From: Sipunculus nudus
Lineage: Eukaryota; Annelida; Sipuncula; Golfingiida; Sipunculidae
Assembly (NCBI GenBank): GCA_026874595.1
Contig: CM049306.1
Location: forward strand, 21,011,019 to 21,075,018
DNA: 64,000 bases
Direction of reading: 5' to 3'
The translations under genes and the position numbers were made by a program. The notes beneath the pieces are model-generated. The model saw only the letters and a list, made by a program, of their open reading frames with translations. It ran no database searches and was not told the DNA's origin. Below, one piece after another: positions 1 to 53,939 of this stretch (its first letter is position 1; each line of letters begins with the position of its first letter).

Positions 1-3000
1 ATGTTGCTTAATTGTGATTTCAACCTACTGACCTCTTCTTGTTTTGTTGCTAGCTGACTCATATAATCTGTGACTTTGTTCCGTTCCTCACGGAGGAGAA
101 CAAGAAGATCGCTAACAGTTTTGTCCAATTTCTCGTGTTTGTGTGGTGCCGTCTCTGGTTCCTTCATGGCAGCTTGGGAATAGCTCTCTTTTGTGATGGC
201 TGGCACTGCCTCTAATTCCTGGGGGTGGACAAAATCGTATCCCTCAACATCTGAACCTGATGAATCTTCCGTTTTGTTGGCTTTTATCTTTGATCTATCA
301 AACAGCGTTACGCTCGATTCCAAACTTGTACTACCTGGACTCTTAGTGAAGAGCTGCGTATTTAAATCGTTATTCAATGCAATTAGCTGGCCTCTCTCCT
401 TCTCTAGACTCTGGTTAACTTTCTCCAGTTTCTTCAGTGCATCCATTTTTTCTGCCATTGTCTGTTTCAATATGGTGTTTTCTTCAGCTATTTTTTCGTA
501 ATCTTGTCTTAGTTTCTGTTTTACATTCTGTAACTGCCCAATGTTTTGTGACATGTCTTCAGTCAACCTGCGTACATACTCAATGTCTGTGTTTGACTGG
601 TTGGTGCTGCTTGCACAGTAAGTGGCCATTTGGTTTACAATCTGCTCATGCTCCTGCAAGGACTCTAGCTCTGCCATCTGGTGGTAGTTTTCCTCACTAA
701 CCCTGGATCCAGTTTTCCCTTCATCCTGCATGTAATATTCAAGAAAAAACACCTTTAGTTGTATAAAAAAATATAATCTGTTACTTTCTGACAACAAGTA
801 ATGTCTTTTTTTTTTTTGTTTCAAAGTGTACCACTAAAATAATTATACGATGCCCTTATTTCTGTAGTGGTAAGAAACAGATAAACAATTAAGTCATCCA
901 AAATGGGGACACACACCCTGCACAGAAGATTTTGCTCATAGACAGTGCACTGAAATGTTAGAGATATATATATCTTTCCTTTAAAAGTTTTTCCCATATC
1001 TTGGAAACAAACCCTGCCCAAAACTCTATACACAAATGTCAATATCCATCACCATGCTGTAAGTTGTGTTACTATCATCTTTCAGGAAAACAGCATATTG
1101 TGTAAGGTCATTGTCCTCTGTGACCTCACAGTTTGTGCTCCACAGACGGCCATATGGTCATGGTTTAAGTATTGATATAAGTACTATTGGTAAATGATGC
1201 TGCCAAAACGTATAAAATGCTCATCCCAAGGTTATATATGCTGAAAATCTTCTCCAATGATATTTTTTTCTAAACGTAAATGAAATTAGTTTCAAAACAA
1301 TTACCAGTACCAAAAAAATTAAGAAAAAACTTTTCCTGACCATAAATGAGATGCTGTTAAACTCATTTTTGACCAATGACATTTCATGTTACATGCCCTA
1401 AATGATTATTATTAAATGCCTGGTGTACTTTCCATTACAAATGTGTTGATACTGGCACACCTGTCAATGTCAGTGTGACTTTTGACTTTGTATCTCAACA
1501 AACAGGTGCACTGATACACCCCTTTTTCCTACAACATCACGCCATTATACTTTTTTACAATATATTTTCAAGCATTCATGGTCCTCCTAAGTTTTCAGAG
1601 AGAAGAGTTCATACTGGTTGAAGGGAAGTAACAGAACCAGTGACTAACCATGCTGCCGGCTGACTGGGTAAGTTGCTTTCTTAGCAAGTCCAGCTGACTG
1701 GTCAGCTCTCGAACTTGCTGGTCAGTGATGGTCTTGTTGTCTAGTAACAGTTTGTTAGTTCTTTGTAACTCTTGTAGCTGTATCCTCAGACCTGATACCT
1801 GTAAAACAGACAAAAATACCTCTGTATCTACAGATTAATTTCATATGAAAGTAAAAACACTTGATTTTAACTTTTACAGAAACAAGAAAAGCAAACTAAT
1901 GGAACTTACATCACCTGCTTGGGATTCTATCAATTTAACAATTGTTGCATTTGAAAAGCAATCATCCAGGCTAATTCTAGGGGCAACCATTGTTATAAAT
2001 TCAATTTCAAATGAAATTGGATAGGGATGTAATTTTTACTCAAAATTACAGAACTGTCTTCAAGTTTAAAGACTGAAAGATCATCAGCTCTTACCAAAAT
2101 GCACGATGTCATTTTATAATGAGCTGAAAATAAGTCCAATCTCCTCAAATTTGTACAAGACCTCTACCAGGAGATGAGAAGTATTATGTTTTAAACTTGG
2201 TTAATTGTTTTGAATGTCAGAAACTCTATGCAAAACATTCAGTTTTGCGTTTGGTAATTTTTTAAGAAAGATTAGGATAACATCCGTAGACTAACCAATT
2301 AAATTTAGAGGTCATCTGAATCACTGTAATGTGTTAGTAATTCAAAGGATATTCTTCCATTGTAACATACAGCAATTATATTACAATAGAACTATTATGA
2401 CTTGCATACATCTGTGCACATATCTGAGGATTATTTTGATGTATTGGCTTTAGAATTTGCATGTGGTTCATCCCTAGATAATAGGGGGCTTTATATGGAT
2501 GTAACCTGGGTTGGGGTTGGTGAACTGTGACAGCTGTGTATTTGTAAACAGCCAAGTTTGATGATGATTGTCCTGGTGGAGGTTTGTGGTCTCTGACTAC
2601 TTCTTTTTTCTTCTCTTTATACTTTACCTGCTGATAAAGGCCAAAAAAATAAAAGGTATGGTTCTCAGGCACCTCCCGTGTCAAGTTCAAACCCCCGCAT
2701 CAAAAATCTTATTTTGATTTTCAATGGAAACTTCCCTACCTCTGCTTCTACAGCCCCAGGCAGGGCTGATCTTGCTGGTCTTACAGCTTGAGCAGTCCTG
2801 AGCTGCAGCTGGAGGTCTCTCATGGACTGTGAGAGAGCAGTGTTCCTCGCTAACAGCTCTGCTTTCTCCTTCCTGAGGCTGGTCACCAGCGTTCGTGCTT
2901 GGTTGAACTTCTGGATGATCTCTTCTCTCTCCTCCTCCATTGATTTCTTCCATTCAGCAACCACCTCACACTGCTCCTTCATCAGGGAGTTGTTCTCCAA

Positions 3001-4455
3001 CATTGTGTCTAGAATTAAAGGGACATAATTAGGGACAATATTATGCCTGTTCCTTCCCAATATAAGTTCAGTTTTGCTTTATGAAACAAAGGTTTCCCAA
3101 TAAACCATCCCAGCACACAGTCTCAGTACCTTCCTCTCAGCTCCTTAATACTGTGTTATGTTTCTACATGTGAGTAAACACTGACCATGTGTGTCTGTTA
3201 ACCATAACAAGGCTGTGTGACTGGAGATCTGATTTACGCAAGATAGATAAATATCAAACAAGTAGTCCAAACATGAATTGAGGAATGTTCCTGTTATGAT
3301 TATGTTGGCACCAGTGATATCACCCAGTCTATTTTTTTAACACTTATACAGGACTGGGCCAGTTTCAGTACATTTTATTTCAAAGAGAAGATGCTATTTT
3401 TCATGTTGTAAACCTGAACATGTAATTTTAGCATTTACATGTTAAATGCAATACAACAAGGAATTTTGCATAAATCTGCATTTTACTGCTGAGCTTTAAA
3501 GTGTCTGATTTTTAAAAGCAAATGCAGTTTTGAACTGCAATCTCAAAATAATAATCAGAGCAATAAAAAAAAGAAGAATCATTTAATAATTGTTCAATAA
3601 GATTTTCTACAGTGACTAGTTTCAGCAGCTACACAGAACAAGTTATTCCTCATAATATACAAAAGAAAATACATGATGGGGTATTATACGAGCTGTAAAG
3701 GGTGTCACCAGAGGACTGTGACTTAGTTATTGTATGGCATATTCAGGTAAGGAGTAAAACCAGATGATTGTTTTGATAAATAACGGTACATTTACATGGG
3801 AGTATCATGTTCAGATATTAGCGTGAGAACTTGGTTAGAAGAGCACCAAGTCGGCATTAAAGGAAGTGGTGATTGGCCAAAAGACCATCAAGACTTGTGA
3901 TGTCAATAAGCATATTTAAGATGTGATTAAGACGAATTTCGTGAGAAGTGCCCGATCAGTGCACCAGTTCATGTAGCCTGACTATATCTGCAGTCCAGGG
4001 GCGGCAGGTCTGCATGCATCAGAGTTTAGACAGCTGAGAGATGATGTCTTTAAAGTATAAGGGTAGATTATAGGTGTCTGAGGAAGGCCACAGTTATTTA
4101 TCTGTAACAGATGTCAGAGCGAGTATCGCATTTTGGTAAATGGTAATCTGGTGAATTTACACCTGTTGTGAGCTCTTCCAGGAACAGACTGAAGACATTA
4201 TTTAAATGCATAACTGTGGAGGAATGTGGTGATTTTACACTTACTCTTAAGATCCTGATTTTCCTGCAGCAAACGATTGACAACTATGCGAGCATCCTCC
4301 GCTGTCAAGTTGCTGAACATGGATGACCCTCGACTGCTGCCCAACTCAAGCCCCTCATTGGCTGCTTGAGTTCCCAGATCCCCCATGTCACCGTATGATT
4401 GTCCAAGCCCCGTTGGAGATCGACTGGATAGGTGTCCTACCCCATTATTCATCAT
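1..4455 (-). CDS. OPTN: Optineurin-like coiled-coil autophagy/NF-kB adaptor, N-terminal part (partial, runs off left edge)
   Basis: Four coding exons join in frame: 4455-4245 (ATG at 4455, ends phase 1, donor GTAAGT), 3008-2740, 1798-1649 and 725-<1, giving about 451 residues before the window edge. Residues about 53-160 are a NEMO/optineurin-type coiled coil (LLQENQDLKN, then LENNSLMKEQ, EEIIQKFNQA). This is the part that binds TBK1 in vertebrate optineurin. Exons 3 and 4 continue as heptad-rich coiled coil. Around residue 373 the motif YDFV follows a Ser/Asp/Glu-rich stretch, like an LC3-interacting region. Some 40 residues later comes TVSDLLVLLREERNKV, which closely resembles human optineurin TVSQLLLCLREGNQKV. 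The order of these blocks matches optineurin rather than NEMO. The expected ubiquitin-binding UBAN and C-terminal zinc finger would lie left of the window. Known role of the family: ubiquitin-binding receptor in selective autophagy and regulator of TBK1/NF-kB signalling. The assignment rests on recognised motifs and was not searched. Confidence 0.82.
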
Positions 4456-5870
4456 TTTGTTATCTCAGTGTAGCTCTGAAACATATTTAAAATTATACTA
4501 AAAAACATGTTAAATATACTATTACTGATCAGTTTCATGTAAGCTGTGAATTTTATACATCTTAGCACTACTAGGATCATTTTTATTAATGGTAGTACTA
4601 TTGGTTTCATTTACTTTAACCATTAGTTTATCACAGATATCTTTCTGACACCTTTATATATTATTTTATTTACAAAGCGGAACATGTCTTATCATTTAAT
4701 GCACGATAGTCACGCAGACCGTGATCTCTACATTATACATGCAATCACATCCTGTTTTTCTGGATTCCCCAATCCCAATATGGAATAATAACCAATGAAT
4801 TTTTTTTAAGGAACTGAAAGCCAGTGAGGCTTTCCTGCACTTTTATTTTTTTTTTAATATCTTTAATCTAAATGGATCGCGTTTTATGTATACTCAGGGC
4901 TGCAATGGAGAGCAGCAACCATGATATACTCTTGTCACTGAATGTATTTACCCTTAACAAACAGTATCTTATCTTATCTTAGCAAGCATTCAAATACAAA
5001 GGAGGGCAAATTCTTATATATCAGACTTCTGTGTCAATTTATCAAAATGAAAATGCTAGCTCAGTCTACCTTTCACAATTGTACAGATATTGTAACAAAT
5101 TGTATGGCCATATCTATCAGTACCCATAAATGGTTATGTATACCTAATGTTAATAAACCAGTTAGGATTGACCATAGAATAAATCCAACACTGTCTTGAT
5201 ATGAGCGTATATCGACAGACAATATGAAGAAAAGAAATCATTTAATGAAGAAGTAAGAGGCAGATACAAATAAGTGACAAACTCGATACAGGCAGTTGGA
5301 CATAAACACGTGTGATGCCTCAGGGAAATGCGTGAGTTATACTTAAGTCGTGCCACCAGTTATAATAATAGCAATAATTGTTGTACTGGAAACAGTATAT
5401 TAATTACTGATTAACACTTTTATAAATAATATTCTAAATTAATAAAATAATACTTGACAAATCATGGTATGATGGATCATGTTGTAATATATGAAGATTA
5501 CCCTTGTATAATCTAAATTCATGAATTTCCACAATATGGATTGACCAATATGTGAGCATATAACATAAACATGTAAAATAGGTCAGTATCCCCCCCCCCC
5601 CCCCCCAACACACATACATACACAACAGAAAGCAACTCACCTTTTAGTTATTGTTAAATTCGCCAAAAACATCAATCTTTGTTTCCAATGGTTATTATTC
5701 TTTACTCATGTATCAAAATTTAGAATTGCCAGCGTATTACTTAGTTCACCAATGAAGGAAGTTATGCGCAGAAAACGGAACAGGGAACGCAGGGATTACC
5801 TCGGGAATTCCCCTTACTGTCAGAGGCACCGTCTTGTCAATCAGATCGTTCGCTAACATTTCGGTAGATG
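4456..5870 (-). other. OPTN: 5' untranslated region of the optineurin-like gene with one intron
   Basis: The first coding exon begins at 4475, after the acceptor tatgtttcag, which leaves a short leader before ATG 4455. A noncoding first exon is inferred upstream. It ends at 5641 with the strong donor AAAAG|GTGAGT and probably starts near 5850; the transcription start is not visible. The intron 5640-4476 is AT-rich and holds a run of 17 C at 5590-5606. I see no other gene in it. Confidence 0.5.
5803..5813. promoter_or_regulatory. Palindromic NF-kB (kB) site GGGAATTCCCC in the optineurin-like promoter
   Basis: GGGAATTCCCC fits the consensus GGGRNWYYCC at every position and is symmetric. It lies about 160 bp upstream of the predicted donor of the noncoding first exon, in the region where the promoter should be. 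Binding by Rel proteins is inferred, not shown. Vertebrate OPTN is known to respond to NF-kB, which makes the position suggestive. Confidence 0.5.
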
Positions 5871-10100: not shown

Positions 10101-13100
10101 CAAGGAAAACTGAATATGAATTACATACAAATATTTTTTTATTTAAAAAAAGTTGAAAAACTATCAACAGTACAAAGTGAAATATTATTTATTAAAATTC
10201 TCATTTATCGTTCCATTGACCCTATTTTCATGACAATCTGGCGAACCTGGCCACTTTGGTTTCACTGTGTATGATTGGTATTCAGTCATAATGTGAGTAC
10301 TAAAATAAGATTTAAAAAAGGTTTTGTGACAGCCCTATTAATAGTACGGTTCTAAATTTTATAATCTGTTAAAATTGAAACTAATGTTGACCAGTTGGCA
10401 TGATAAAAACAGGAAGTGGTTACTTTTATTGACTTCAGATTAGAATACTCTACCCATTGATAAAACAGGATTATCAAGGAAGACCCTGTGTAATTTATAT
10501 TTGAACCTGTGGGTGATTTTGGGAATAAAATGAGTCATTTATAGAATTGAGCAGTGTGTGATGTAAAGATTATAAAAAGCACTATCGTCAGGTACTGGTT
10601 TGTCAAAACAAATCATTGATGTATTGTCTGTTGTTTTGTTATTTCATAACATATTTTACTTTAGCTGATCAGATGGTTTGTCATAATATTAAGTACTAGA
10701 CAAAAATGCATGTATTAAATGGTATTGTCATAAAGGTGCTGTTGTTTCTAATGTAATTGTGAGAGGCCAGAACTGCTTTTATTTAATGATTGTACCTCCT
10801 GTCAGAGCAAGACAAAAAATGTTGCAGTGATCTGTTCAAATTCATGCATGTGCATAGATATGTGTGATAGGATGTAGCCTCATAAAAAAGGGGTCATGAC
10901 CTTAAGGAGAGTGACCTTGACCTTGAATTTTCTCATTTTGCATGAAAATCACATAAAGGATTAAATATATCAAGGAAAGTCTGAAAGATTATTCAGATTG
11001 ACCAAAGTCTATAGATAGACTAGTGGCACCACTGATAATCCTTTTCTTGTATTTGTGTTGTTTACTACCCTCATTGCCACTTGACAATGGTGTGATAAAT
11101 ATAATTAAACAAATTAATTTGCCAATTTTCTTTCATATTGAGCACATGAATGGATATGGGTCATAGAATGCAGCCTTTATAAATTTGGGTCATAACCTTT
11201 ACTGTGAGAGATGCTTTGACCTTGAATAGTTTTGAATTTGGTGAAAATGCACCAATCATATTTTTCAAATGGATGAATGGGTCTTTCTGAAAATCAGAAT
11301 AAAAGATTTGGGATAGGAAGTCAACCTTGAAAACTGGTGATTTGCAGAAATGTAAGATTTTAATGAACCCTGTAACTTTTTAAATGATGCATATGTTTCC
11401 CTCAAACTTAATACAAGAATTGTTTCAACCAAGTTCTTGGAAATGTTTGAAAACCTGTGACCTTAACCTTGGTCTTTAGGGTCATATATGCAGAAGTAAA
11501 GGATTTTTGTGATTGCCATTGAAGTTTTGCACGTTTCCCCTCATATTTTAAAAACAAATTGTTTCATTTTATATTTTTATGCAGATATCAATGCTTTTAT
11601 AGTTTCTCCACATTCTTAGTCAGTTTTGGTTGTAAGTTCTTTAATCACCTTTATCATTATCTGTGTAACAACACAATGACGGAGTGGGATTCTCCTGTTC
11701 CGCACATTCTTCTTCTTGGTCTCCTTACCTGTGGTCCCAGATGAAAAACAAACAGTCCCATTCCCTTGCACTTGGCCATATCCTTGACTGGATGGTTGCT
11801 AGTTGATAATTGACTAAATCCTTGATAGTTGTACCTCACAAGCTTAGAAGGGACATAATGTGAAATATCATCAGTCAGAGATGTGTTTAATGGCATCTGA
11901 TTAGCTGATTGTTGTAGAATCAATGATAAAATTTATATCATAATAGGTATTGTATCATAAGATAATGTATCTTCACAGCTTTACTGACAAAAAAACATTC
12001 CTTTTGAGAATATATTTACTTTCTGTATCATGAGCACTGGGGGCATGATGATACTAATGTAATACATGTGTTTGTGTATTACAGGGAAACAGCCAGAAGA
12101 GAAGTTGCTGGCTGCTGTCTACAATGGTGACACGCAGAGTGTGGCCAGTCTGCTGAATGAGACTGATTCCCATCACCCCATATTCCTGGGTGGTCAGCTG
12201 CTGTGTGCAGCATGCAGTATTCCTCAAAGTAAGTGTACTCAAAACACAGTCTCATGAGTTGTGTGCAGCATGTATGAACCCTAAAGGTGCAACCTACACA
12301 GGATCCATAGGATCCAATAGACCAGACACACAACTGATTGCAACCCATAGAATTCCCTTTGTTAAAGATACAGACACAGCCTTATGCAGCCCATAGGATT
12401 GTTAAGAGTGTAACTAACACACAGACACAACTGTGTGCAACATAGACACACAGCTGTTTGCATCACATAGGATCCCCAAGAGGACAACATATAGACATGA
12501 CTGTCTGCAGCCCATAGGATTTTTCTGAGTGTAAGATAAGGACACACAAAGACAGCTGTGTATAGCCCATAGGATCCCTCAGAGTGGAACATACAGACAC
12601 GGCTGTGTGCAGCCCATCGGATCCCCCAGAGTGTAACACAAAGACACAGCTGTGTACAGCACATAGGATCCTCGCGATTGCAACATGGACACACAGCTGT
12701 GTGCAGCACATTATATCCCTCAGAGTGCCATATAGACACAGCTGTGTGCAGCACATTGTATCCCTCAGAGTGCCACATAGACACACAGCTGTGTGCAGCA
12801 CATTATATCCCCCAGAGTGCAACATAGACACACAGCTGTGTGCAGCATCAAGGCTCACCAAGAGTGCAACATAGAAACACAGCTGTGTGCAGCACTTGGG
12901 ATCCCTCAGAGTGCCACCTAGATGTCCAGGTGTGTCAAGCACATAGGATCCTCCAGATTGTAACATAGATGCACAGCTGTGTGCAGCACCAAGGATCCCC
13001 CAGAGTGCAACATAGGCACAGCTTTGTGCAGCACATAATATCCCCCAGAGTGCCACATAGACACACAGCTGTGTGCAGTACCAAGGACCCACCCAGAGTG

Positions 13101-16100
13101 CGACATAGACGCACAGCTGTGTGCAGCACTTGGAATTTCTCAGAGTGCCACATAGATGCACAGTTGTGTGCAGCACCAATGATCCCCCAGAGTGCAACAT
13201 AGACACAGCTGTGTGCAGCACATTATATCCCCCAGTGTGCCACATAGACACGTAACTGTGTGCAGCACATAATATCCACAGATTGCCACAGAAAGTCATA
13301 GACACACAGCTGTGTGCAGCACCAAGGATCCCCAATAGTGCTACATAGACACCAAGCTTTATGCAGCACCAACAATCCCCAAGAGTGCAACATAGATGCA
13401 CAGCTGTGTGTAGAACCTCAGATCCTCTAGATTACAACATAGACACACAGCTGTTTGCATCCCTTAGGATCCCTCAGAGTGCAACGTAGATGCACAGCCA
13501 TGTGCAGCACATAGGATCCCTCAGAGTGCAACATGCAGATACAGCTGTGTGCAGCTCATAAAAAATATGAAATATGATATAATATGATAGAATCCCCCAG
13601 TGTAATTTTCATACACAGCAATGTTTGCATGGCCAGGATCCCTCCAAGTGTAACATTAAGACCGCCATATGCAGCCCAAAGGACCCCTCAGAGTGTAGCA
13701 ACGAGCATAGATTATGTATTGACGATCTCCTTCCTCTCATAACCGCTATTATAAACAGCTCTGGAGACTGGATGTGTGCCAAAAGACTTTAAGACTGCCA
13801 GGATAAAACCACTCCTGAAGAAACCAGGACTTGATCCAGACATTCTTAAGCACTACAGGCCAGTGTCCAACCTCCCGTTGTTTTCTAAGATTCTGGAGAA
13901 GGTTGTTGATGAACGTCTGGGGCACCATCTGCAAATAAATACTCTCTACGAGTCCTCACAGTCTGCGTACAAGAAGTCTCATTCAATAGAAAGAGCCTTT
14001 CTTAAGGTACAAAATGACTTTTTCAAAACTCTTGATGCTGGTTCTGTGACTGCACTGGTAATGCTGGATCTTTCCGCCAGATTCAATTCAATAGACCATC
14101 AGACACTTCTGGATTGCTTTGAAAGTCATTTTGGTATTCAGGGAAAGGAGCTAGCATGGGTATCATCCTACTTGAATAATCGGTGCCAGACTGCGTCAAT
14201 ACATGGCAAGTTGTTTAAAAATGTTTTACTACAGTATGGAGTACCGCAGGGGTCGGTCCTAGGTCCCAAGATGTATGTGATGTACACAAAACCACTCAGT
14301 GATATTATTCGTCAACATGGATTAGGTCATCACTTCTATGCCGACGACACTCACGTGTACCTGTTTTTTAAGCCTGCAGACACCATGTCTCAAGAATACG
14401 CTATAAGTAGGATATAGCTGTGCTTAGTAGACATTCAGTTATGGAGAACAAGACGTAAGCTTAAGCTGAACAGAAAGACAGAGGTTATGATCTTTGCATC
14501 AAAACAACCAGGGTAAACTGGAGAACTTTTCTATCAAAGTGGGTGGTTCCGTTGTTGCAGCTACATCACACGTAAAGGATCTTGGAGTGATGTATGACTT
14601 GGCAATGGCCACGGAAAGACATGTTAATAACATCTGCCCTTCAGCGTTCACTGAACTTCGTAATATTAGTCGCATCAGACGGTACCAGACAAATGATGCT
14701 ACTAGATCTTTAGTTAATGGACTAGTAACATCGTGATATGCTCAGTATTCTCCAACCCAAAACTCTCTCATTCTAGTCTCTCCTGGTGTTAGAACTGCTA
14801 CTTACGGCAATAGATGTTTTAGTTGGAGTGCATCTAGTCTGTGGAAAAAACTACCATTCCATGTCAGAGACTCCAGTTTAGTTGACACTTTTAAATAGTG
14901 TTGGGACGATATGGGTTTTTGATATCATAATAATTATTCAAATTTTATCGCGTTATACTGTGATATCGCGATATTTTTAATTATGTATAATGGCATTAAT
15001 AAGCCATTAATAATGATATTTATAACAACTGCCTTTAAAGTCTTGACTTTATACAAGGGGTTAAGTATTAATATCATTTATACCTATTGGCCAGTACCAC
15101 AGAATGACTCATTAAGTGATGTAAGTTGCATGAAGGTCCTGCAGGTGTGCAAGCTTGAGGCACGGGAAGTCCTGCCCCCATCGTCGAGTCACGCTAGTCA
15201 GAACTTTCCATCAGTTTTCTATAGCTACATAAAAGCCGGAGAATCCCAGCAAATTTTCAGAGAGCGTGTCATACCAGTCATGGCTAAATATACCATCCCA
15301 ATTGTATATGGCAAAATATGCAACCCGTATGGAATGTTCGATTCAGTGGTGACACTTTTATGTTGACATTTTCGTTCCATGCAATAAAAGCATAAACATG
15401 TGTATTTATTGCTCTTTCATTATAATGTTATTTTCTCCTGGAATTCTCAAGCTTTTGTCCACTCTGATTCATCCTGCTACTTTCGGACATTTCCGACTAA
15501 TCCCGAAGTCTGTAAGCACACGGTTCCACCAACACGCGTGTATTCAAATACATGTGGTTTATAAAAATAAATGTGATTCTTTGAAATAAATTTATTTTGA
15601 ACTTCAAGGGCTTGCTTGTGAACCAAAATCCTGAACAAACATTGATATTGTGATATCGCGATAATAGGAAAGTTGACAGTGATAACCGTAGCTGTCAGAT
15701 ATCGTTATAATACCGTATACCGGTAACCGTCCCAACCCTACTTTTAAACACTCTCTTAAGACACACTTATTTTTAACATACTACAATGAGTCTTAATTCT
15801 AGTGGGTTTTCCCCTATCTTTTTTAGTATATGTTCTAGGTAGATTTCTTTTACGATTTCTTTTATGTAAAGTGCTTTTGAACATACTTAATGTATGAAAA
15901 GAGCGCTATATAAATGTGGTATATAATAATAGACAGACAGCTGCATGCTGTCCACACATACAAACATGGCTGTTTAACATTCAGACACAGGTGTGTGTAA
16001 TGAATTTCTTAAGAACTATATCTCAAGTGGTACAGGAATACATATATACCTGTTCTAGTTTTACAGCTCTAGTTTCCATAATTAGTCACAGAAAGCGAGT

Positions 16101-19100
16101 TACATATTCAGTTTGAGTGATAGTATTTGAGTTTTTGCCTTTAAATAAATACAGCTTAATTGATTGATCATTCATTCATTGTAAGATATTCAAAATATCT
16201 CTCCAGGCTGTTATTATTGAATATTAATATGAACTTTGACCTCATTACTTAGGTAATTCCAAGATAGTACAACAACTGTTGGAATTCAGCTGTGAGGATG
16301 GTGACGCAGAGGCCCAGGTCTACAAGGACCTGGCTCTCTATGTTGCAGCTTCAAGGGTAAGGGGTCATGCATATTCATGAGTCATGCATAGGTATTAATC
16401 CCCATATATGGCACCTCTGCTTTTGTGCTGGTATGTACTCTAGTGCAGCACCCTCAGACTATATCCAAACACCTTTGACCAAATCTATCAACAATCTTTT
16501 CTGCCAAACCTGCTGGTTTATGTAGTAAGCCATTTTTTATTCAGATGATAAAAAGGATTTTTTATTCAGATGATGAAAAGGATTTTTTATTATATTATGT
16601 AAATGTTAAAATGTTAAGGTATTTGTGCAGTATATATGAAGAGCTCATTCAAATTTGGTACTTCCAAAATATTGGAACCCTGATAACCAGTGATTGGTTA
16701 CTGACCTAAGAGAGAGGTTATGCAAGATCCAGTCCATCTAAGATAGACCATCAGACTCCACAAACTCCAAAATTATCACTTCATCAGGCGTCATATTATT
16801 TTCTGAAAACTGTTCAGTGAACGGTCACAAAAGGTTGGAATAAGTCTGTGGGTGCCGCAGCTGTTGTGTAGTATGATGTAGTATCAGCGTTTTTCCGCAT
16901 GCCTTGCTTAAACAGCCTTGTCTCGTGCCTTCCATAGGCAATGCTGCCATAGTACGCCTTCTCTTGGACCGAGGGTGTGATCCCAATGAGACTGATTCAA
17001 GCATGTATCGCAACACTGCTCTGCATCTTGCGGCTTCCAAGGTTAGTTGTTAAATTCTCAGTTTCTGTGGCACCATGTTTAAAGCTGGGGTTACAGTACC
17101 CTTGTTAGCAAACCAACAGGAGTGGTACGATATATCAGTATATCTATCTGATGATGAGGTCCAGTGTGATTACTGGTTGATATTATAAGAAATGATATAA
17201 TTATGAGTGGCTCTGTTAAGGATTGATATAAAAAATAAGATTTAACAGGAATATAAATTAAAATCAGTGTTAATATACAGTTTTCCTTAACTGGCACAAC
17301 ATACTAAAGTTTTTCATATGAAACAGAAAAACGGAGAGGCAATCAAGAATTTTTAAAGCAAACCCAGTGCAGTTTAACATCTGGATTTTTTTACTGCTCT
17401 GAAATGCACTAATATAGTCATGGATTACCTGAAATAGAAAGAATGTAACAAATAAATACAGCTTTAATCAAGCAAATTAATAAATTAAATAATACTTACC
17501 AGCCAAGCTTTTTGATGAAAAAGCATTGCAGTTAACGTAGTCTGTAGATTTAACTGGTCAGTTTACTTCTTCCAGAGAGTGCAGTTTCTTAATTCCGATA
17601 ATTTTGATAATCATTCATGAACCTGAGTCCATCATTGATACTGGTATATATATGTTTCTTCAAATATCCATCCATAATTTTATTGATAATATTTAACCAA
17701 TGTAGATAATAATTATTTAGTATTTCTCCTAAAAGCCAGCACATTTTGAGGGGCAAATCTGTAATTTGAGAACTTTCCTCAATTATATGTAATAACTTTT
17801 TTCAATTTAAGTAACATTTATTCAATAAAAAATGCCACTTGAAACTAGGATTAAACAGAAATTCAGGTACAGAGTTGCACCTTTTTTGGCAAGTGATAGC
17901 TTACTTGTATAATCCGGGAAAAAATCCAGATAAGAATTGGATGAAGTCATGACTAAGAAACAGAGTTTTTGTTTCTTTGGAATTGGATGGAAATTAATCA
18001 GTAATTAAATTTGTGTGTTTTTTTTTAAATGTTCAGTTCTAATTTAGTAACAGGCATGGGAATCAAGTAGCCATGTTATGATGATAATGAACCCTACTGC
18101 TGACATGGTGCCACATGACACATGCTTTCCACTTATTTATACTCTTTGGTATCTGGTTGCTGAAAACGTACATAATAAATTTCCTTTTAGTTTGTCTGAT
18201 CGGATTGGAAGAATTTTCCCCTGTGTTTGTCATGTGGAATACTAACCAGTTTTGAATGTAAAAGAATAATCTTAAAAAATTGTCCATCTGAATAGCAAAA
18301 TATCACAATTTTTGCAAAATTGCAAAAGTTTTGGTCTAGCTCTTAAACTATGATCACACCAGTCTGTGTTGCCTCAGGTTGGCACAGCAAAAGTTGAAAG
18401 GTAGCGATTGTACAGGGTTGGATGCATTTGCAACAGTAAGAAAAAGGATTAAATTTATTTGCCTGTCTTTATTTTTCTTTGGACCCTTCCTGTAAATGGT
18501 CAGTATGGGACAGAGAACAAGTCTGTGTCTTCTGTGTGCTTTCTTCCTTCTTTTATTGAGTGTCTGTTGAGTTCTGTGTTTTCTTTCTGCCACCAGCTAT
18601 AGCTGTTTTAATGTGCCTGTCATCTTCTTACTAAACATAGTAATACTGCTTGCATGGGTGGTTTTAACATTGCTGATGACTGTGCCTTACTTTAAATGTA
18701 TTAACATAGTGAAACATTAAAGCACTGCTTTCCAGTTATTGCTTATAAAGACTCAATAAGCATAGTAATTTCATAGATCAAAAATGGGTATAAAATAAAC
18801 TATTCTTTTTCCTTATTGTGGCAGTCTGAATATTTTATGTTTAATTTTTTTCTTAAAATTAAAATTGTTATGCTGTGCAAATTTTCAATAACCTGGATGC
18901 AAAGTTACATATATAGGTTATTCATTTGATAGATATGAATAAAAGTTTTATGATTGTTATAAAGACGGTGTACCAGTAATGTCAGATATTAGGCATTGTT
19001 GGTAGCATGTATTGGTAATTTAGAAATCTTTGCCAGAATCTTGTTGAAAGTAAGACCAGTTATTGACTGACATGAACCTGACTGTTACATGATGAACATA

Positions 19101-22100
19101 TCAAATGGAAGAAAATTTGAGTATTTTCATATGGTTTTCTTATATATGACCTTAAACTACCATGATGTAGATTGTTAAATCTTGAGGTGACACGAAATAT
19201 GCTTGTAGACATTTAGTCTATATTTCTATCCTGCTATGAATGTATCATCAGGATTCTAAATTTGTTTGAAAAGATCATGCCAATAGGACATAAAGATTGC
19301 AGGTATCACAGGCCCACCAGGATACTTGCAGGCCAATCATCCTCTGTATTTGTGCATTTAAGGATAGAAATCTGTCATCTGTTTTTGTACTCTGAAGAAA
19401 TTGCTGAAAACTGGAACTTTAAGGGCAATGACTGATACTTGTCAAAACAAAACGTAATTTCATTCAGTCCAAGACAACAATTTCACTATCAAGAACACTT
19501 TATTAATACAAAAAGTAATTTCATTCAGTCCAAGACAACAGTAATGAATATCTCTATCCATCACATTTTTTCAAAACTAGAGTAATTTCATTCAGTCCAA
19601 GACAACAATATCACTATCCAGAACACTTTATTAATACAAAAAGTAATTTCATTCAGTCTAAGACAATAGTAATGAATATCTCTATCCAACACATTTTATC
19701 AATACAAAAAGTAATTTAATTCAGTCCAAGACAACAATTTCACTATCCAGAACACTATAATTACAAAAAGAAATTCATTCAGTCGAAGACAACAGTAATG
19801 AATATCTCTATCCATCACATTTTTCAAAACTAGAGTAATTTCATTCAGTCCAAGACAACAATATCACTATCCATCACATTTTATCAATACAAAAAGTAAT
19901 TTAATTCAGTCCAAGACAACAATTTCACTATCCAGAAGACTATTAATACAAAAAGAAATTCATTCAGTCAATGACAACAGTAATGAATATCTCTATCCAT
20001 CACATTTTTCAAAACTTAGAGTAATTTCATTCAGTCCAAGACAACAATATCACTATTCAGAAAACTTTATCAATACAAAAAAAAATTTCGTTCAGTTTAA
20101 GACAACAGTAATGAATATCTCTATCCATCACATTTTATCAATACAAAAAGTAATTTAATTCAGTCCAAGACAACAATTTCACTATCCAGAACACTATTAA
20201 TACAAAAAGTTATTTCATTCAGTCCAAGACAACAATTTCACTAACCAGAACAATTTATTAATACAAAAAGTAATTTCATTCAGTCCAAGACAACAGTAAT
20301 GAATATCTCTATCCATTACATTTTATCAAAACAAAAAGTAATTTCATTCAGTCCAAGACAACAATATCACTAGCCAAAACATTTTCTCATACTTCGTAAC
20401 CACACAGGATAAATGTGCCATAATCTGGTGACTGCTTATGGGTCTAGCTTTCCAAATTTTTACTTTTGAATATGGAAAAAAAGTCGCATAAATAACAAGT
20501 ATTGCTATGTTAGGAGACAATATGACCCAAAACTGTCATGTTGTGTGTTTGTAAGCCTTGAGGTGCTGTACTATATCTGTTGATCCAGAATGGATTATGG
20601 TATGATTGTGTTTTAAGCAGGGGTATTATTTTACTTCAGGGCGATCCAGACATAGTCCAGGTCTTGTTAGATCGTGGTGCAGACATTCTCGGAACAAACA
20701 GATTTGGTGTGACCCCATTGCATTCAGCTTGCCGTCATGGTAACACAGGTAACTAAATGTGCATCGTGACATCCAAGCCTTCTGCTGAACCACCACTCTG
20801 ACTATTTACAGTCAATATAATCTCCACATTGGGTAATGGGTACCCTGTTCATATATACTGCTTACAGGTAAAAATAACCATTTCCTGGCAAAACAAGCAG
20901 GGAACCAACCTCAGTGTTATAAATTGCTTTTGTTGTTGGTCACTTAATCACAGTGGAACATGCTGTCAGGTCACATTTCATTACATGGACATGTTCAAAA
21001 TACAATTAAATGAAATTAGGAGTTTTTTCCAACTTCAGAAAATCCGAGGGTTTGTCCACCAAAATATTTTAAAAATTTGCTTAAAAAATTAGATTTAATA
21101 TCCACACATCTGTTGCAAAGATGAAGAAATAATGATTTCTGACTCATACCTGCAGGAGTTGTTGAAGTTTTAGTCAAGCGCGGAGCACCAGTTGACTACA
21201 AAGACAGTGGATCCAGCTCGCCACTCTACCACGCTGTCACACACGGCCATACAGACATTGTCAAAATATTGATAAAAGGTGAGGCATTTTTCAGGGAATT
21301 TGTCTGGTCTGTCAGGCATTTATAAATACTGTCATTAGCTTCATATTCGCCAGGTTAAGATGTCACTATTTTCACTTTGTAGCAAACCTGTGAGCTTATG
21401 CTGTGGAGTAGCGTCGTCCATCTGTCATACACAGTCATCTGTACCTTCATGCCACTCACCTTTCAGTTTTTGTAGAATAGATTAATGCCCATTTTTCAGG
21501 AGTGATTTGCAGTATTGGCCTGAAATTGTGCATATTTATAGAGCTTGGGCTCCTCCATCTTGTACTTAAGACTGGTGGCACCATCTGCAATCCTTTTCCT
21601 GTAGCATCCATCCGTACATGTATTTTGGGTGAAATTTCTCATATCTGAGGAGTGGGTCAAGGGATTGTTATGTAAATTTGGCATGTTCATCTATCTTGGA
21701 AAGTTTTCTGGTAAAGCAGACAGCTGGCGCCACTTACTGTTCCGTTTTTGTAGGTAAATTAATGCCCGTTTCTCAGGAGTTATTTGCAGTATTGGCCTGA
21801 AATTGTGCATATCGATAGATCTTGGACTCCTCCCTCTTGTACTCAAGACTTATGGCGCCATCTACAATCATTTTCCTGTGGCGTCTTTTTGTACATGTGC
21901 TTCGGGTAAAATTGCTAATATCTCAGGAGTGGGTCAAGGTTTTGGTCTGAAATTTGGCACGTTTATCCATCTTGGAAAGTTTTCTCATAAACCAGACAGG
22001 TGGCACCACTCCCCTTGCAGTTTTGTAGAATAAATTAATGCCCGTTTTTCAGGAATGATTTGCAGTATCAGCCTGAAATTGTGCATATCCATAGCGCTTG

Positions 22101-24576
22101 GACTCCTCCATCTTGTACTTAAGACTGGTGGCGCCATCTGCAATCATTTTCCAGTGGCATCCATCTGTTCATGTGTTTTGGGTAAAATTTCTCATATCTC
22201 AGGAGTGGGTCAAGGTATTGTTCTGAAATTTGGCATGGTCATACATTTTGGAAAGTTGTCATGTTAACCAGATAGGTTGCGCCACTTAGCTTCTGGCTTT
22301 CATAGAAAAAAATAATGCCCTTTTCTTAGGAGTGATTTGCATTATTTGCCTGAAATTGTGCATATCCATAGCTCTTTGACTTAATCTTTGTACTCAAGAC
22401 TGATGGTGCCATCTACAATTGATTTCCCATGGCGTCTATTCATACATGTGCTTTGGAGGAAAATTGCTCATATCTCAGGAGTGGGTCAAGGTATTGGTCT
22501 GAAAATTTGGCATGTTCATCCATCTTGGAAAGTTTTCTTGTAAACCAGGAAGGTGGCCCCACCTACCTTTCTGTTTATGTTGAATAAATTAATGCCCTTT
22601 TATCAGGAGTGATTTGCATTATTGGCCTCAGGTGGTGCAACTTACAATCATGATTACATGGCAGACACCCATCTCACCTTATTTCCCCCTTACCACTCAA
22701 TCCATGCCTCACTCCACATGTACTAATCTGATTTTCGCGGATACATGTAGTCGCTTTCGACAAACTGTATCAAGTTGTTTTATGCATCTCTGCACATAAC
22801 TGAAGAGTTGTTTGAGGTCTGATATGTCCATACATCTTTAATGGCTTTCTTGTTCACAATACTGGTGGTGTCACTTATATTCATTTTTGTGTTTTGTGCG
22901 CCTATGCGTGTATTTCAGCAGTGACGTTTGTGTAATTTTTGCATGGATTCCGGTTCAAAATGTTCAGTGCTTGCATTGTACATATACATGTCACACGTGC
23001 TTGAAAGGAACGGTCCAGCATGGAAGCATTATACCTGATATATATCCCATTGCACAGGTTCGCATTAGGCCTGTAAGCCTTGTTCATTGTGTCATGAGGG
23101 TTCTGATCTTGTGATCTCACCAAACAATAACCTACCCAGATTCTGAACATAATTATATGAACTTATTAATATGAAATAATGGTACAGAATCTTGTAACAA
23201 ATGGAAGGGGACTAACGTGAACATCAGATGAGTAGAAAGTATTGTTCAGTATTGGCATATAATTTGAAAGATTTGATATAATTTGTTATAGCAATCTTTC
23301 ATTAACGGGTTAAATATAAGGTCTGTTATTATTTACAATATCGATCATTTGCCTTTTAACATGTCTTTGACAATAGGCCTCTGATTCACGAAGGTTTTAT
23401 TTTCACAGTTAATTTCCCTTTTGTGAATATGTTGTATAGGAAACCCTCAAGAACAAAAAGGGAAGTTCAGTATATGTTCCCTTTAAAAAGATACATACAT
23501 GGAACAGGTTGTTTGTATTATTGAAAATTTAAGATATTTAATAAGTTGTTGATGATTGCCAACAATGTTTAATATGCAATATTTAGTCTGTAGAAAATTC
23601 TCTCTGACCCTTTAACTTATACATAATTATGTAAGATATTATTAGATTCATTTAGTAACATTTTGTGCTTGTTTTTGCCTGCATCGTTGTGATCTTATTA
23701 TTAATAACATTTGTAAACCTTGATTTCGAAAATGCTTGAAAAGCCCTTGAAATTTGCAAAGGGAAAGATGTATGAACCCTGTTCTGTGCTTGTTGACCTT
23801 TTTACCAAGTCCTTGTTCTTCTGCTATGTGCGGCCAGACCAGTTCAGCCTTGTTCTCCTGACCACCATTTTGATGGTCTTTAGGTATCTGCATTTTTACC
23901 TGCAGTCCTATTTTGTTCTTCTATCTTTCAGTGACACACTGACATTTTCCCTGTTTTCTGATTTCAGCTGGTTGTGATTTGGACATTTTATCTGCAGGCC
24001 TGTATTTGTTCTTTAATCTTTCTTTGACACACTACTTATTTCTGATTGCATGAATTATTTAAACACATCATGCTACTGATGTTTTCCTGTTTTCTGATTA
24101 CAGCCGGTTGTGATTTGGACACTGTTAACGACGAGAAGCTCAGCTGTTTGGACCAGTCTCTGGTCTATAACCACAGAGATATCACAGCCTTTCTACTTAA
24201 AGGTGGCTGTCAGATAGAGAAAGCCAAAGGACACATTTATTATTCAGGACATTACTGTAACACTGTGCTGTACTCGCTCATACAAGCCCGGGATATGGAG
24301 AATATCCGACTACTGATTGAGTGTGGGCATAAAGTCACAAAGCAAGGACTACAGCAAATGTTAAAAAATCCCAACTCCATTCAGGAGAGCCAGGACATAC
24401 TGGGACTTCTACGACACGCGTCCAATGTGCCACGCACACTTAAAAGTTTATGTCGTATCACAGTGCGACGGGTGCTCATTAACAATCGGCGGGCCAACGG
24501 GGGCAGTCTGGACAGACAAATAGAGAGGTTGGGCATACCTCTAAAACTGCGCAGCTTTATGTCTATGAGAACATAA
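7170..24576 (+). CDS. Ankyrin-repeat and SOCS-box (ASB-type) E3 ubiquitin-ligase substrate adaptor
   Basis: Predicted exons: 7170-7185 (ATG, five codons, phase 1, donor GTAAGT), 12085-12228, 16253-16356 and/or 16938-17041, 20640-20748, 21156-21278, and 24104-24576 (stop TAA). Using either 104-nt exon gives an open frame of 322 residues. Five or so ankyrin repeats are visible, with hallmarks such as [23 protein letters not shown] and [15 protein letters not shown]. The last exon adds a diverged repeat and a C-terminal SOCS box: [16 protein letters not shown] is the BC box that contacts Elongin C, and IPLKLRSFM is the Cul5-box end. ASB proteins are known to bring substrates to Elongin BC-Cullin 5-Rbx2 ligases; the substrate here is unknown. 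The 16-nt first exon is the weakest part. It fits by phase, a good donor and its position after a short upstream ORF (7127-7141). Which ASB orthologue this is cannot be decided by eye. Confidence 0.8.
9847..10268. mobile_element. Old MITE of the CAGTGAAA-end family
   Basis: The left end begins CAGAGAAATTTGG followed by repeated 'atgacca' words. The right end, reverse-complemented, begins CAGTGAAACCAAAGTGGCC. The element at 44222-44411 has the same design. Both ends are diverged and no clear target-site duplication is seen. It has no coding capacity, so it is non-autonomous. Confidence 0.4.
10860..11560. repeat. Degenerate dispersed repeats with 'gaccttgacctt' words
   Basis: Two to three decayed copies of a roughly 280-bp unit are spaced along this stretch. 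They share phrases such as 'gggtcata(a/t)', 'gaccttgaccttgaat' and 'gaaaactggtga'. The same phrases recur at 49070-49420, so this is a dispersed family. Boundaries are approximate. Confidence 0.4.
12240..13700. repeat. Minisatellite, about 47-bp unit, in intron 2 of the ASB-like gene
   Basis: About 30 imperfect tandem copies of a unit of about 47 bp are present. Typical words are GGATCCCTCAGAGTGCAAC, ATAGACACACAGCTGTGTG and CAGCACATA. The array begins directly after exon 12085-12228. Its unit aligns with the last bases of that exon plus its splice donor, suggesting it arose by amplifying that junction. The right part is interrupted by a LINE at about 13700-15930, and remnants of the unit reappear at 15935-15995. 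Long open frames within the array are by-products of the repeat. Confidence 0.9.
13700..15930 (+). mobile_element. 5'-truncated, frameshifted CR1/Jockey-group LINE, split by a hAT element
   Basis: The region 13716-14417 encodes a reverse transcriptase core with small frameshifts: [40 protein letters not shown] and the catalytic box YADDT (about 14337-14351; second aspartate at the DD position intact). A further fragment at 14494-14736 and the C-terminal part (to 14895, resuming at 15741) complete the ORF end. The 3' tail has the typical 'aagtgcttttgaa...gcgctatataaat' motif, ending near 15915 with a short ATA repeat. In-frame stops and shifts make it inactive. It sits inside the minisatellite and was later split by the element at 14896-15740. 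Confidence 0.8.
14896..15740. mobile_element. Non-autonomous hAT-type DNA transposon nested in the LINE
   Basis: An 845-bp element is flanked by a perfect 8-bp target-site duplication CTTTTAAA (14888-14895 and 15741-15748). Its ends are inverted repeats, TAGTGTTGGGACG at the left and TAGGGTTGGGACG for the reverse complement of the right. An 8-bp duplication and TAG-type ends are hallmarks of hAT elements. No transposase is recognisable; the open frame at 14983-15366 shows no known domain. Removing the element restores the LINE reading around [12 protein letters not shown]. Confidence 0.85.
16527..16592. repeat. Short tandem duplication in the ASB intron
   Basis: Two near-identical copies of about 27 bp (TTTTTTATTCAGATGATRAA then AAGGA) stand side by side between the two 104-nt ankyrin exons. 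No function is evident. Confidence 0.6.
17042..19447 (+). other. ASB intron segment without recognisable features
   Basis: AT-rich intron DNA between the exon ending at 17041 and the tandem array starting near 19448. Open frames (for example 18063-18287 and 18354-18593, minus) show no domain or splice context. I see nothing else here. Confidence 0.5.
19448..20385. repeat. Tandem array of alternating 61- and 67-bp units
   Basis: About 15 copies share the core GTAATTTCATTCAGTCCAAG then ACAACA. They fall into two subtypes. One continues 'atttcactatccagaacact', the other 'gtaatgaatatctctatccat'. The subtypes alternate for part of the array, giving a higher-order unit of about 128 bp. The array lies in the intron before the exon at 20640. 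Confidence 0.85.
21450..22640. repeat. Tandem array, about 276-bp unit, in the last intron region of the ASB-like gene
   Basis: Units begin near 21481, 21757, 22033, 22312 and 22588 at the phrase 'attaatgcccnttttcagg'. Each contains 'gcctgaaattgtgcatat', 'aggagtgggtcaaggtat' and 'catcttggaaagttttct'. Spacing is 275-279 bp. A decayed copy may persist to about 22930. Open frames at 21803-22033 and 22055-22267 are two copies of one repeat segment, not a gene. Confidence 0.85.
22930..23895 (+). other. End of the last ASB intron, no gene seen
   Basis: AT-rich intron DNA between the 276-bp array and the duplicated acceptor region. Open frames such as 22887-23114 (plus) and 23648-23893 (minus) lack recognisable features. 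Confidence 0.5.
23899..24110 (+). repeat. Tandem duplication containing a second copy of the final-exon splice acceptor
   Basis: Two related blocks, about 23899-23990 and 23991-24125, each run from 'ctgcag(t/g)cct' through 'ttctnatctttc(a/t)', then 'tttttcc(c)tgttttctgatt' and an acceptor. After the acceptor both have '(t/c)ggttgtgatttggaca'. The downstream copy (acceptor 24101-24103) opens the true last exon. The upstream copy (acceptor 23965-23967) can be read in frame for 28 residues and then stops at 24051-24053. Confidence 0.7.
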
Positions 24577-30868: not shown

Positions 30869-33759
30869 TCAGTGGAGGGTTAACGGAGAAATCCATACAA
30901 CCAGATTATATCTGAAATGGAAAAAAAATCAATTTTTAAATTAAAAAAGTATTTGGTAAAAAATTAACGTCTAATTATCTCTCATTGACTTAAATTTATG
31001 CAACAGAAACAGACAATAAAGTATAAATTTACATGGATTTGAGTATTCAAAAGGAAAGGAAAAACTTTTCCAAACAGTATGTGTTTCAAATTAAATATCA
31101 ATGTTTATCTTCTGAATTTCTGCGGCCAAGTTTCCTGTGAAAAGATAATTTTGAAAACTTCCCTTAAAAGTTATGCACTGAATACTTTGTGTGCAAATAT
31201 CTCGAACAGTGTATATATATATCAATATATATTTTTATGTATATATATGTGTGAGTGTGTGTGTGTGTTTACTTCCAGGTATTCTACCGGTATTTCTTTG
31301 ATATGAGATCCCACATATCACAGGTTTAATAATGTTTCATAGCAACTTACGCAATGAGCAACCACGAAGGGACTAAAGCGCCACCTGCCGACCGTAGTTG
31401 TTGACAGTCCAATTGAGTCATGTTTTGGGTACTTTCAGGTATCCTCTCCCAGTAGTCGACGCAACAGTAAGTGTTGGTCACGTGACCGCAGCAATACCCT
31501 CCTGTCCCACAGTCCTCCCCGGGTCTCCAAAACCCACCAGTGTCACAGTAATCAGGGCAGCGTTCCCCGGACACTGGAATGGTGATTGCAACAGGAGAGG
31601 TTACCTTGGATTTCTTGCACTACACGTTAAGGTTCATTCTAACGATATCCATTCAGACATAAATCAGTAACCACCAGTGGTAAGAATAGGTTGTAAAATC
31701 AGAACAGATGATTAAAAGAAGAAAATCAACCGAAGATCGATTATTAATCGATTATTTTATGCACCTATATATCCCTGAAATTTGCTGTATAGTATTATAC
31801 TTAATCTATTGACTGATCAAATTCAGCCTGACTTGTACATCAGCTGACAGTTCGAGGTTACGGCCAGGTTGTCGAGGTTACGGTCAGGTTGTCGAGGTTA
31901 CGGTCAGGTTGTTGACGCTTTTTCGCTGCACAAGGTTAATGCTGTCCACTACCCGGGTTCCGTCTTTTTGTCCCTTCTTTAACCCTGACAGAATTAGAAT
32001 ATATTTTTTTCCGGATATAATATGACTATTTTTCATGTGCATACATAATCGTTTGTGATCAATTATTGAAAAAATGGAATCGATTTAATCACTTATGAAA
32101 GATAACGACCAGTCATCGATATATTCGATCAATTTGAACACCTAACCTCTCATACCTGACACGTCACATATGTTTTTAAACTCTGGATACGTATTACCTT
32201 CATATTATCTCAGGCCAATTGGAAGCAGAGGTCAAAGGCTCATTATATTTTATTGAACAACCACGCGTTATCAACTTTAATATAAAATATAAGTAGGTTG
32301 CACAAAACTCCAGTCAGTCAGTTCAAGAAAATGATGTTCCCTGTTAGAAAAGTAATCAAGGTCTATTTCAACGCTGACATGGCGACAGCTCGACACATCC
32401 AGGCTGGCGCAGCTCGTCGATTTTTTCCCGGCGCTCCATGAAAATGAACACAAGATAAATCCAGCGAGTTGATGCAGCAACGCCCTCAGTAACCGGTTCG
32501 TGGGACGGGCTTGCCATCTGGCGTCGTATCGCGTAAGCGTTTGAAAAGTTAGGCGACCAATTTAGTCAATAATGTTATTACATTTGTTTATTGACCAGTC
32601 GTACGTGAAAATTTGGGAGACTGTTTAAAAACGATATGCTCTACTTTGCTGAAATGTATGAAACTTTGATCTTAAATTTCTTCTTTATTCTTTTTACCTC
32701 CGATCAGGCATAAGTTCTTTAAGTTCATTGTTTAAATAACCACTTTCTTTATATCTTTAATCAATAAATGTATACTTGTTGTATGTTTTCAGTCATCTGC
32801 CCATGCAATAATACTTGCCAGTTTTGACCCCCAAAAAATAAAAGGAACCTATGAGTGAAACCAATAGAAGTCCAAATGAAGCCACGTGTGTCACAGGAAT
32901 CTATGAAAGAAACCGTGCAGAGACATCCAAATGAAGCCATATGTGGCACAGAAGTATGTGAAAGAAGCTGTGCAGAATAGAAATCCATAAATGAAATCCA
33001 AAAATCCACAGCGAAGTCCTAATGAAGCCACATGTGTCACAGAAATCTAGGAAAGAAACCGTGCAGAGAAGTCCAATGAAGCCATATGTGTCACAGAAAC
33101 CTATGAAAGAACCATTGCAGAGAAGTCCAGATGAAGCCAAATGTGTCACAGGGCGCTATTAACCACAAAGAAGAGAAACTCCAAACGAAGCCATCTGTGG
33201 CACAGCAGAAGATGTAAACAAAGTAATGTGGGTTTGCAAAACAGAGGTGTATCTTATACACGATATACTTTTGCAATGGTTATTATAGTATATAAAATTC
33301 CCCGTATCCAGATACGTTGTTTTACATGACATTAAAGGAGAAATAAATTAATATGTTACAGGACAAATGAAGCAGGAAAACGCAGAAGAGCTGCCTATTT
33401 ATAAAGCTCAAGTTGTTTTTTTGTATTCCGGATTTTATACCTACCTTGGGTGACCAATGACCATGCATACATTCTTGTGGCTCAAGAACACATTAATTTA
33501 GGTTTAATAAATAATTATAGATGTTTAAGCATTACGTTCTTGAAACACAAGGAATGTTCTCAAACATTAGATAGTTCAATAGGTCATATGTAAATTCCGC
33601 TATAACCGGCCCTTTCATTGATATCAACTGCTAGTTAGGTTCAAGATCTTTTCATATTCGTCCATTGTACTTTTCTTAAACTTCAAACAGTCTCACCTAC
33701 TCACCATTTGCAATAACCAAGGCGACCCATAACAGGCAAGCAATCCCAAAAGAACCCAT
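30869..33759 (-). CDS. Small secreted/membrane Cys-rich protein, STMC6 (Shisa/CYYR/WBP1)-like, paralogue B
   Basis: Exon 1, 33759-33705, encodes a signal peptide (MGSFGIACLLWVALVIAN) and ends phase 1 at a GTGAGT donor. Exon 2, 31573-31351, encodes a Cys-rich module: CPDYC, GEDCGTGGYCCG, TYCCVDYW, then an N-glycosylation site NMT and an eighth cysteine in LDCQQL. It ends phase 2 at GTAAGT. A tentative last exon, 30911-30869, adds a short hydrophobic tail (YNLVVWISPLTLH) and a stop. The CxxxC, C, CC, CC layout resembles the extracellular part of Shisa, CYYR1 and WBP1/VOPP1 proteins, which have one membrane span after it. No PY-rich cytoplasmic tail is seen. Function is unknown. It is a tandem paralogue of the gene at 35284-37957, with the same exon phases. 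Intron 1 holds a tandem array (32850-33210). Exons 1 and 2 are well supported, the last exon weakly. Confidence 0.6.
31205..31272. repeat. Dinucleotide repeat tract (TA then GT)
   Basis: Interrupted TA repeats pass into a GT tract, in the intron between exon 2 and the putative exon 3 of paralogue B. Confidence 0.8.
31852..31911. repeat. Three tandem copies of a 20-bp unit
   Basis: TCGAGGTTACGGTCAGGTTG is repeated three times head to tail with two or three substitutions. It lies in intron 1 of paralogue B. Confidence 0.9.
32850..33210. repeat. Tandem array, about 57-bp unit, in intron 1 of paralogue B
   Basis: About six copies of a unit built from 'agtccaaatgaagcca', 'atgtgtcacagaaatctat' and 'gaaagaaaccgtgcagaga'. 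Periodic open frames on the minus strand (32761-33009, 32901-33149, 33091-33276) derive from it and are not genes. Confidence 0.85.
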
Positions 33760-53593: not shown

Positions 53594-53603
53594 TGTGACC
53601 TTT

Positions 53604-53939
53604 TTCCTTTGGTTGTCTTATATATAATATGGTCTGCAATAATTTGTCAAATTCAACTTAGCAGCATAGCCCATGGTCAATTTTTATATATATAGCTAAA
53701 TTAAAATAAATAACTGAAGAAACTCTAAGAAACATACGTGACGTAATTTTTGATTGCAATATTTGTAAAGAGGGAGGAGTTTGCTTTTTCCAACTTTCAT
53801 ACTTTAATTTGGCATGTATGTATCGTATTCACGGCCATAAAAACACTCACTGTTAGCTAATACTTTTACTTTTGTAGAATATGAATAGTTTTTGTCACTG
53901 TTACTCTTATTTAAACTGTATATCTACTTTGCTCAGTGT

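Follow-up and report, generated by a model that had tools for sequence, protein, structure and literature searches.

A candidate mutually exclusive pair of ankyrin exons in an ASB-like gene of Sipunculus nudus

An ASB-like gene and its surroundings

The window, that is the whole 64,000-nt stretch of Sipunculus nudus DNA that was analysed, carries on its plus strand between 12085 and 24576 an animal gene composed of ankyrin-repeat exons, with a SOCS box in the last of them. Exon A (12085..12228, 144 nt) has an open frame, exits in phase 1 and encodes what is by inspection an ankyrin-like segment. Ranked with an approximate matrix, its acceptor (ttacag/GG) belongs to the top 3.2% of the AG sites in the window and its donor (AAA/gtaagt) to the top 1.1% of the GT sites. 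The open frame includes an in-frame ATG at a distance of about 20 nt on the upstream side, and exon A is a candidate for the first coding exon. Downstream follow two candidate alternative ankyrin exons, E1 (16253..16356) and E2 (16938..17041), separated by a GT-AG intron of 581 nt (16357..16937), and then the ankyrin exons N (20640..20748, 109 nt, phase 0 to 1) and X5 (21156..21278, 123 nt, phase 1 to 1). The last coding exon, X6 (24104..24576), is open in frame and holds the end of the ankyrin array, the C-terminal SOCS box and, at its end, the stop codon.

In the translation that includes E2, the SOCS box of X6 is recognized by Pfam SOCS_box (PF07525) with 32.3 bits against a cut-off of 23.5 (E 1.2e-07). 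Because of this C-terminal SOCS box the gene is, on its domain content, ASB-like (ankyrin repeats plus SOCS box); the order of the two parts is that of the ASB family, of which no particular member can be assigned to it. The SOCS box of ASB proteins recruits Elongin B/C and Cullin 5, and these proteins serve as Cullin-5 substrate receptors. The gene product is thus a probable, putative substrate receptor of a Cullin-5 ubiquitin ligase. The SOCS box was not part of the original prediction, and it gives the gene a probable role as a protein-disposal adaptor.

Compared with PDB, the E2 form retrieved ankyrins and designed ankyrin proteins, and none of the best 60 of 458 matches was named ASB. The last exon alone reached ASB9 chains only with E-values of 0.28-0.57, and an RNF4 chain ranked ahead of them with 0.0065, apparently by chance. 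When close paralogues of the last exon were sought, 21 candidates yielded 8 matches, of which the best apart from the exon itself had an E-value of 3.3e-4 and 29% identity, and a search for its relatives in viral contigs gave 15 pattern matches, none of them confirmed. As to a spliced retrocopy, among the matches listed (188 matches, with 150 of 896 candidates scored) those of at least 81% identity were the gene's own exons.

Several further features lie within the gene. About 53 nt around the last-exon acceptor (24075-24128; polypyrimidine tract, AG and first coding bases) have a second copy 136 nt further upstream, at 23938-23990. From the upstream acceptor copy (exon start 23968) the frame runs for 28 residues to a stop, which would yield a putative protein without a SOCS box; if used, this form would bind substrate without recruiting the ligase. 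A 47-bp minisatellite with about 21 copies (12552-13560) resembles the border between exon A and its intron (region 12200-13560). Aligned locally with the doubled minisatellite unit, 12180-12300 scored 70 against a maximum of 34 in 300 shuffles, and exon A alone scored 32, within the shuffles; the minisatellite may have grown from the exon A-intron border. Other tandem arrays, with periods of about 61 (or 129) and 277 bp, occupy introns of the same gene at 19442-20389 and 21451-22628, and a plus-strand reverse transcriptase fragment (13755-14414) lies in the intron between exon A and E1.

Further features of the window lie on the minus strand. A frame at 2668-3078, in which the N-terminal domain of NEMO is recognized (PF11577, 25.0 bits, cut-off 23.2), may belong to an optineurin/NEMO-like gene, the name being a guess, that points away from the ASB-like gene; the minus-strand frames 3-785 and 4201-4464 gave no Pfam match above cut-off. 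Two Shisa N-terminal domains (PF13908), about 5.5 kb apart, are found at 31350-31619 and 37074-37334 with 36.9 and 29.6 bits (cut-off 22). A frame of 1224 codons at 49975-53646 encodes endonuclease, reverse transcriptase and zf-RVT domains and resembles a LINE-like retrotransposon. Elsewhere in the assembly, several higher-numbered contigs, C61, C62, C83, C89 and C90 among them, carry ankyrin open frames whose scores are identical, for instance at least five 352-residue frames that each match with 72.4 bits; a recent expansion, redundancy among the contigs or DNA of foreign origin could account for them.

Reading frame and splice sites of the two exons

E1 and E2 are both 104 nt long, enter in phase 1, exit in phase 0 and encode 35 residues each, which align without a gap and are identical at 13 of 35 positions. 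Their donors fall at the same position of the alignment. E2 follows the canonical ankyrin consensus, with the motif TALHLAA, and the counterpart in E1, LALYVAA, is a degenerate version of it. The coordinates, lengths, phases, splice dinucleotides and gapless alignment proved to be as originally described, and so did the claim that either exon splices cleanly between its neighbours: translation of A+E1+N and of A+E2+N gave open frames. When both exons are joined by their primary sites (A+E1+E2+N), the frame reads A-M-L-P and then meets a TAG at 16950-16952, within the five codons that had been foreseen. Joining exon A straight to N, with both exons skipped, also shifts the frame and leads to a stop inside exon N. 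Since both or neither means frameshift and stop, exactly one of the two is needed as long as the primary splice sites are used.

A published predictor of mutually exclusive exons (PMC3228551) asks for similar length, the same splice type and frame, and a relative score of at least 15%. E1 and E2 have equal length, GT-AG sites and the same frame, and their relative score is 0.405 with E2 as the query and 0.417 with E1. The same study counts 90 exons that share the predictor features among 16,180 (0.56%) that are not annotated as mutually exclusive (PMC3228551). Repeat proteins are likely to contribute to such exceptions.

Splice sites were scored with approximate matrices of assumed values and ranked relative to the AG and GT sites of the window. 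The E1 donor (AGG/gtaagg) is in the top 0.3% and the E2 donor in the top 1.2% of GT sites; the acceptors of E1 and E2 are in the top 5.2% and the top 0.1% of AG sites. Acceptor scores were 7.62 for E2, 2.07 for E1, 1.63 for a further site at 16916 and 1.19 for exon N. From these acceptor strengths it is plausible that E2 is the default exon and E1 the regulated one.

Within the intron between the two exons there are a weak donor after 16363 and an alternative acceptor that gives the exon start 16916, both of them in frame, and E1 and E2 could be used in tandem through either of them or through a donor at 16300, constitutively or as a cassette, with an additional ankyrin repeat as the result. 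Eleven donors in 16300-16479 were combined with eleven acceptors in 16800-16989, and of these 121 combinations nine link the two exons in a continuous, stop-free frame. Among the eight of the nine that were listed, the best were donor 16300 with the E2 acceptor (summed score 9.1), the E1 donor with acceptor 16916 (7.5) and donor 16363 with the E2 acceptor (5.7). The original prediction had named the donor after 16363, which is present, and had not included the routes through 16300 and 16916; its statement that joining both exons shifts the frame holds for the primary sites and fails for these three routes. Each of them sacrifices a primary site, however, and the primary, frameshifting pair sums to 13.5, although acceptor 16916 by itself is about as strong as that of exon N.

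Protein-level evidence on tandem use is divided. With Pfam Ank, the tandem form made by donor 16363 reached 115.8 bits, the E2 form 109.9 and the E1 form 88.7, and by our own count the repeat junction between E1 and E2 would be just two residues longer than that between E2 and N. With Pfam Ank_2 (cut-off 27.3) the E2 form led with 153.8 bits, followed by the E1 form with 130.6 and the tandem form with 127.7. The profiles thus do not decide among the three forms, and the single-repeat model slightly favours the tandem one. Against tandem use, the form made through 16916 would add residues to a helix turn, that made through 16300 would shorten E1, and the aligned donors are what is expected of two copies of one phase-1-to-0 exon. 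We regard regular tandem inclusion as unlikely.

A G might also be missing from the assembly in the run GGG at 16355-16357, a run which is present as the original prediction had noted. E1 would then be 105 nt long, phase 1 to 1, and the two would be ordinary consecutive ankyrin exons; by our own count, a 105-nt E1 would space the repeats as they are spaced at the E2-N junction. This explanation is very improbable: the E1 and E2 donors align gap-free in the sequence as it stands, and a one-base error at exactly this place would have a low prior probability. The assembly comprises 1.43 Gb in 153 contigs, which suggests that it was built from long reads.

Mutually exclusive use of E1 and E2, as originally proposed, is still the best reading of the frame, the geometry and the sister relation described below. 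We consider it probable, and the existence of in-frame tandem routes is the main reason why our confidence is no higher.

Relationship and constraint of the duplicate

The resemblance of E1 to E2 stands out within the window. Segments of the type AG-104 nt-GT number 196 on the plus strand (33 open) and 200 on the minus strand (42 open), and among such exact 104-nt segments E1 scores 74 against E2, the next best open one scoring -14. A scan in the manner of the published predictor, with E2 as the query, accepted the same frame, a length difference of up to 20 residues and a relative score of 15% or more; it covered 8,630 AG..GT pairs on the plus strand (1,618 open) and gave six matches, namely E2, E1 and two truncations of each. 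On the minus strand there was no match in 7,380 pairs (1,638 open), and no further exon copies were found in the window with this query. In the same kind of scan, 30 order-1 Markov replicates of the gene region yielded no match at all. With X5 as the query, part of exon N was recovered too (0.186), which is not surprising for related repeats.

Since ankyrin repeats are similar to one another in any case, the original prediction had called homology alone weak evidence. Within the gene, five repeats give ten pairs, among which E1 and E2 are the most alike for their composition (z 10.6; the next pairs reach 8.3 and 7.9); against N, X5 and the repeat that runs into X6, E1 reaches only 3.3, 3.9 and 2.1. 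This comparison omitted the ankyrin-like segment of exon A (34 residues) and the irregular later repeats of X6. Outside the gene, E1 was compared with 69 distinct in-register ankyrin segments, taken from 14 of 21 fetched loci (the other seven being this gene), and scored at most 23 (mean 8.2, s.d. 7.5) versus 74 with E2; E2 scored at most 52 with the same segments. The loci had been chosen for likeness to the E2 form or to the last exon, and the 69 segments are not independent of each other. Of 3,000 pairs drawn at random from these segments, 34.7% score 74 or more as well, since many of the segments belong to near-identical arrays. Such a score is thus no rarity among ankyrin repeats in general; what matters is that E1 reaches it with E2 and with none of the other segments compared.

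Register length and assembly-wide searches add to this picture. E1 and E2 have 35 residues, the three other gene repeats compared have 33, and 35 occurs in 2 of the 69 outside segments. Over the 1.43-Gb assembly, E1 as the query (E <= 10) found besides itself only E2, at a weak E of 3.63 (two first-look candidates), and E2 as the query (E <= 1) found only itself (three candidates); a single copy of the E1/E2 exons was found in the assembly. Within the limits of these comparisons, ordinary ankyrin similarity as the whole explanation was rejected on the within-gene z values, the 69-segment scores and the assembly search, and the caveat is largely removed.

The duplicate appears to be old and constrained. 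E1 and E2 share 56 of 104 nucleotides, with 19, 24 and 12 identities of 34 at codon positions 1, 2 and 3 (positions 1 and 2 versus 3, one-sided Fisher p 0.007), and they differ by no indel, contain no stop and keep both splice dinucleotides. By the NG86 method dN is 0.62, dS 1.13 and dN/dS about 0.55; the maximum-likelihood dS of 8.4 is saturated. Taken alone, the NG86 ratio would fit one free and one constrained copy.

E1 could accordingly be a dead or unused copy, or a poison exon that lowers expression when it is included with E2. Such relaxation on one branch would fit the NG86 ratio, E1 has lost ankyrin consensus positions, its form stays below the E2 form in the Pfam scores, and joining it to E2 by the primary sites does produce a stop. 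Neutral decay of an E2-like exon was simulated in 4,000 runs per level, with indels at 8% of substitutions and with assumed indel rates and kappa. With indels, no run of 4,000 remained intact with at least 13/35 identity at 0.57, 0.9 or 1.13 substitutions per site, and 1.2% did so at 0.3; when indels were left out, 2.5% remained intact at 0.57 and 16% at 0.3. Under these assumed rates the simulation, together with the finding that third codon positions diverge most and with the intact frame, length and splice sites, argues against free decay of E1, and a pure poison exon would have no need of a gapless ankyrin frame. A dead or poison E1 is in our view a minor possibility.

A proposed mechanism and comparison with known systems

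Our preferred reading, that E1 and E2 are mutually exclusive exons, can be put as follows. Long ago one ankyrin exon of an ASB-like gene would have been duplicated in tandem and kept as a two-member cluster, and each mRNA would carry one of the two. Transcripts with both or neither would be lost to nonsense-mediated decay or would give a truncated protein. In the joined form the TAG is followed by 89 nt of E2, and exons N (109 nt) and X5 (123 nt) then intervene before the last exon. As a rule, a stop upstream of later exon junctions exposes a message to nonsense-mediated decay; by this rule the joined E1-E2 message would be exposed to it.

By comparison with the ankyrin consensus, the choice of exon would exchange the second helix of one repeat together with the hairpin loop and the first helix of the repeat that follows. 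The swapped part would belong to the presumed substrate-binding ankyrin surface, and local stability might be altered too. The SOCS box, which is expected to recruit Elongin B/C and Cullin 5, would be constant in both forms. The gene could in this way supply a ubiquitin-ligase adaptor in two versions that differ in substrate preference, or else an active and a weakened form; a weakened E1 form is conceivable because E1 lacks much of the ankyrin consensus. The fullest version, in which an ASB-type Cullin-5 receptor is retargeted by exclusive ankyrin splicing, the 104-nt frame enforces the use of exactly one exon and a SOCS-less form arises through 23968, is put forward only tentatively.

Other means of enforcing exclusivity were considered. 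Steric hindrance is unlikely with an intron of 581 nt; a human survey uses a criterion of less than 50 nt between donor and branch point (PMC5740500). Incompatibility of U2 and U12 sites was rejected as well, the sites being GT-AG and U2-like by inspection. As to competing RNA pairing, the best duplexes among the flanking stretches (378, 551 and 601 nt) were matched by 5, 10 and 23 of 30 Markov replicates, and known RNA families gave no match in the window at the gathering threshold. Because the intron has 581 nt and no competing RNA pairing was detected in these stretches, it is likely that exclusivity is enforced by frame and decay.

If expressed, the gene would encode a ubiquitin-ligase substrate receptor whose choice of target may be set by splicing. 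Ankyrin arrays are thought to grow by the addition of repeats, and an exon of 35 codons minus one nucleotide could only be swapped. Duplication of such an exon would push a repeat protein to variation and not to growth.

Mutually exclusive splicing is well known, and E1/E2 would be a new case, in an ASB-like gene; the literature searched, which covered few subscription papers, showed no report of an ASB gene whose ankyrin exon comes in two variants. Clusters of the Dscam type, with docking and selector sequences (PMC6071210), have a presumed origin by tandem duplication in common with the present pair; unlike them, there are two exons here and no intron pairing beyond that of Markov replicates in the regions tested. 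Comparable, too, are the human mutually exclusive clusters whose length is not divisible by three, of which PMC5740500 counts 377 (60% of human clusters). Reads that join the two exons are reported there for only 22% of these clusters (PMC5740500), and for this reason the frame may often be a backstop and not the sole control. These clusters are like E1 and E2 in consisting of adjacent homologous internal exons of equal length and phases that shift the frame when joined by their primary sites. The present candidate pair differs from them in lying in an ankyrin array, where an extra repeat could be tolerable, so that the frame and not the fold would be the barrier to joint inclusion.
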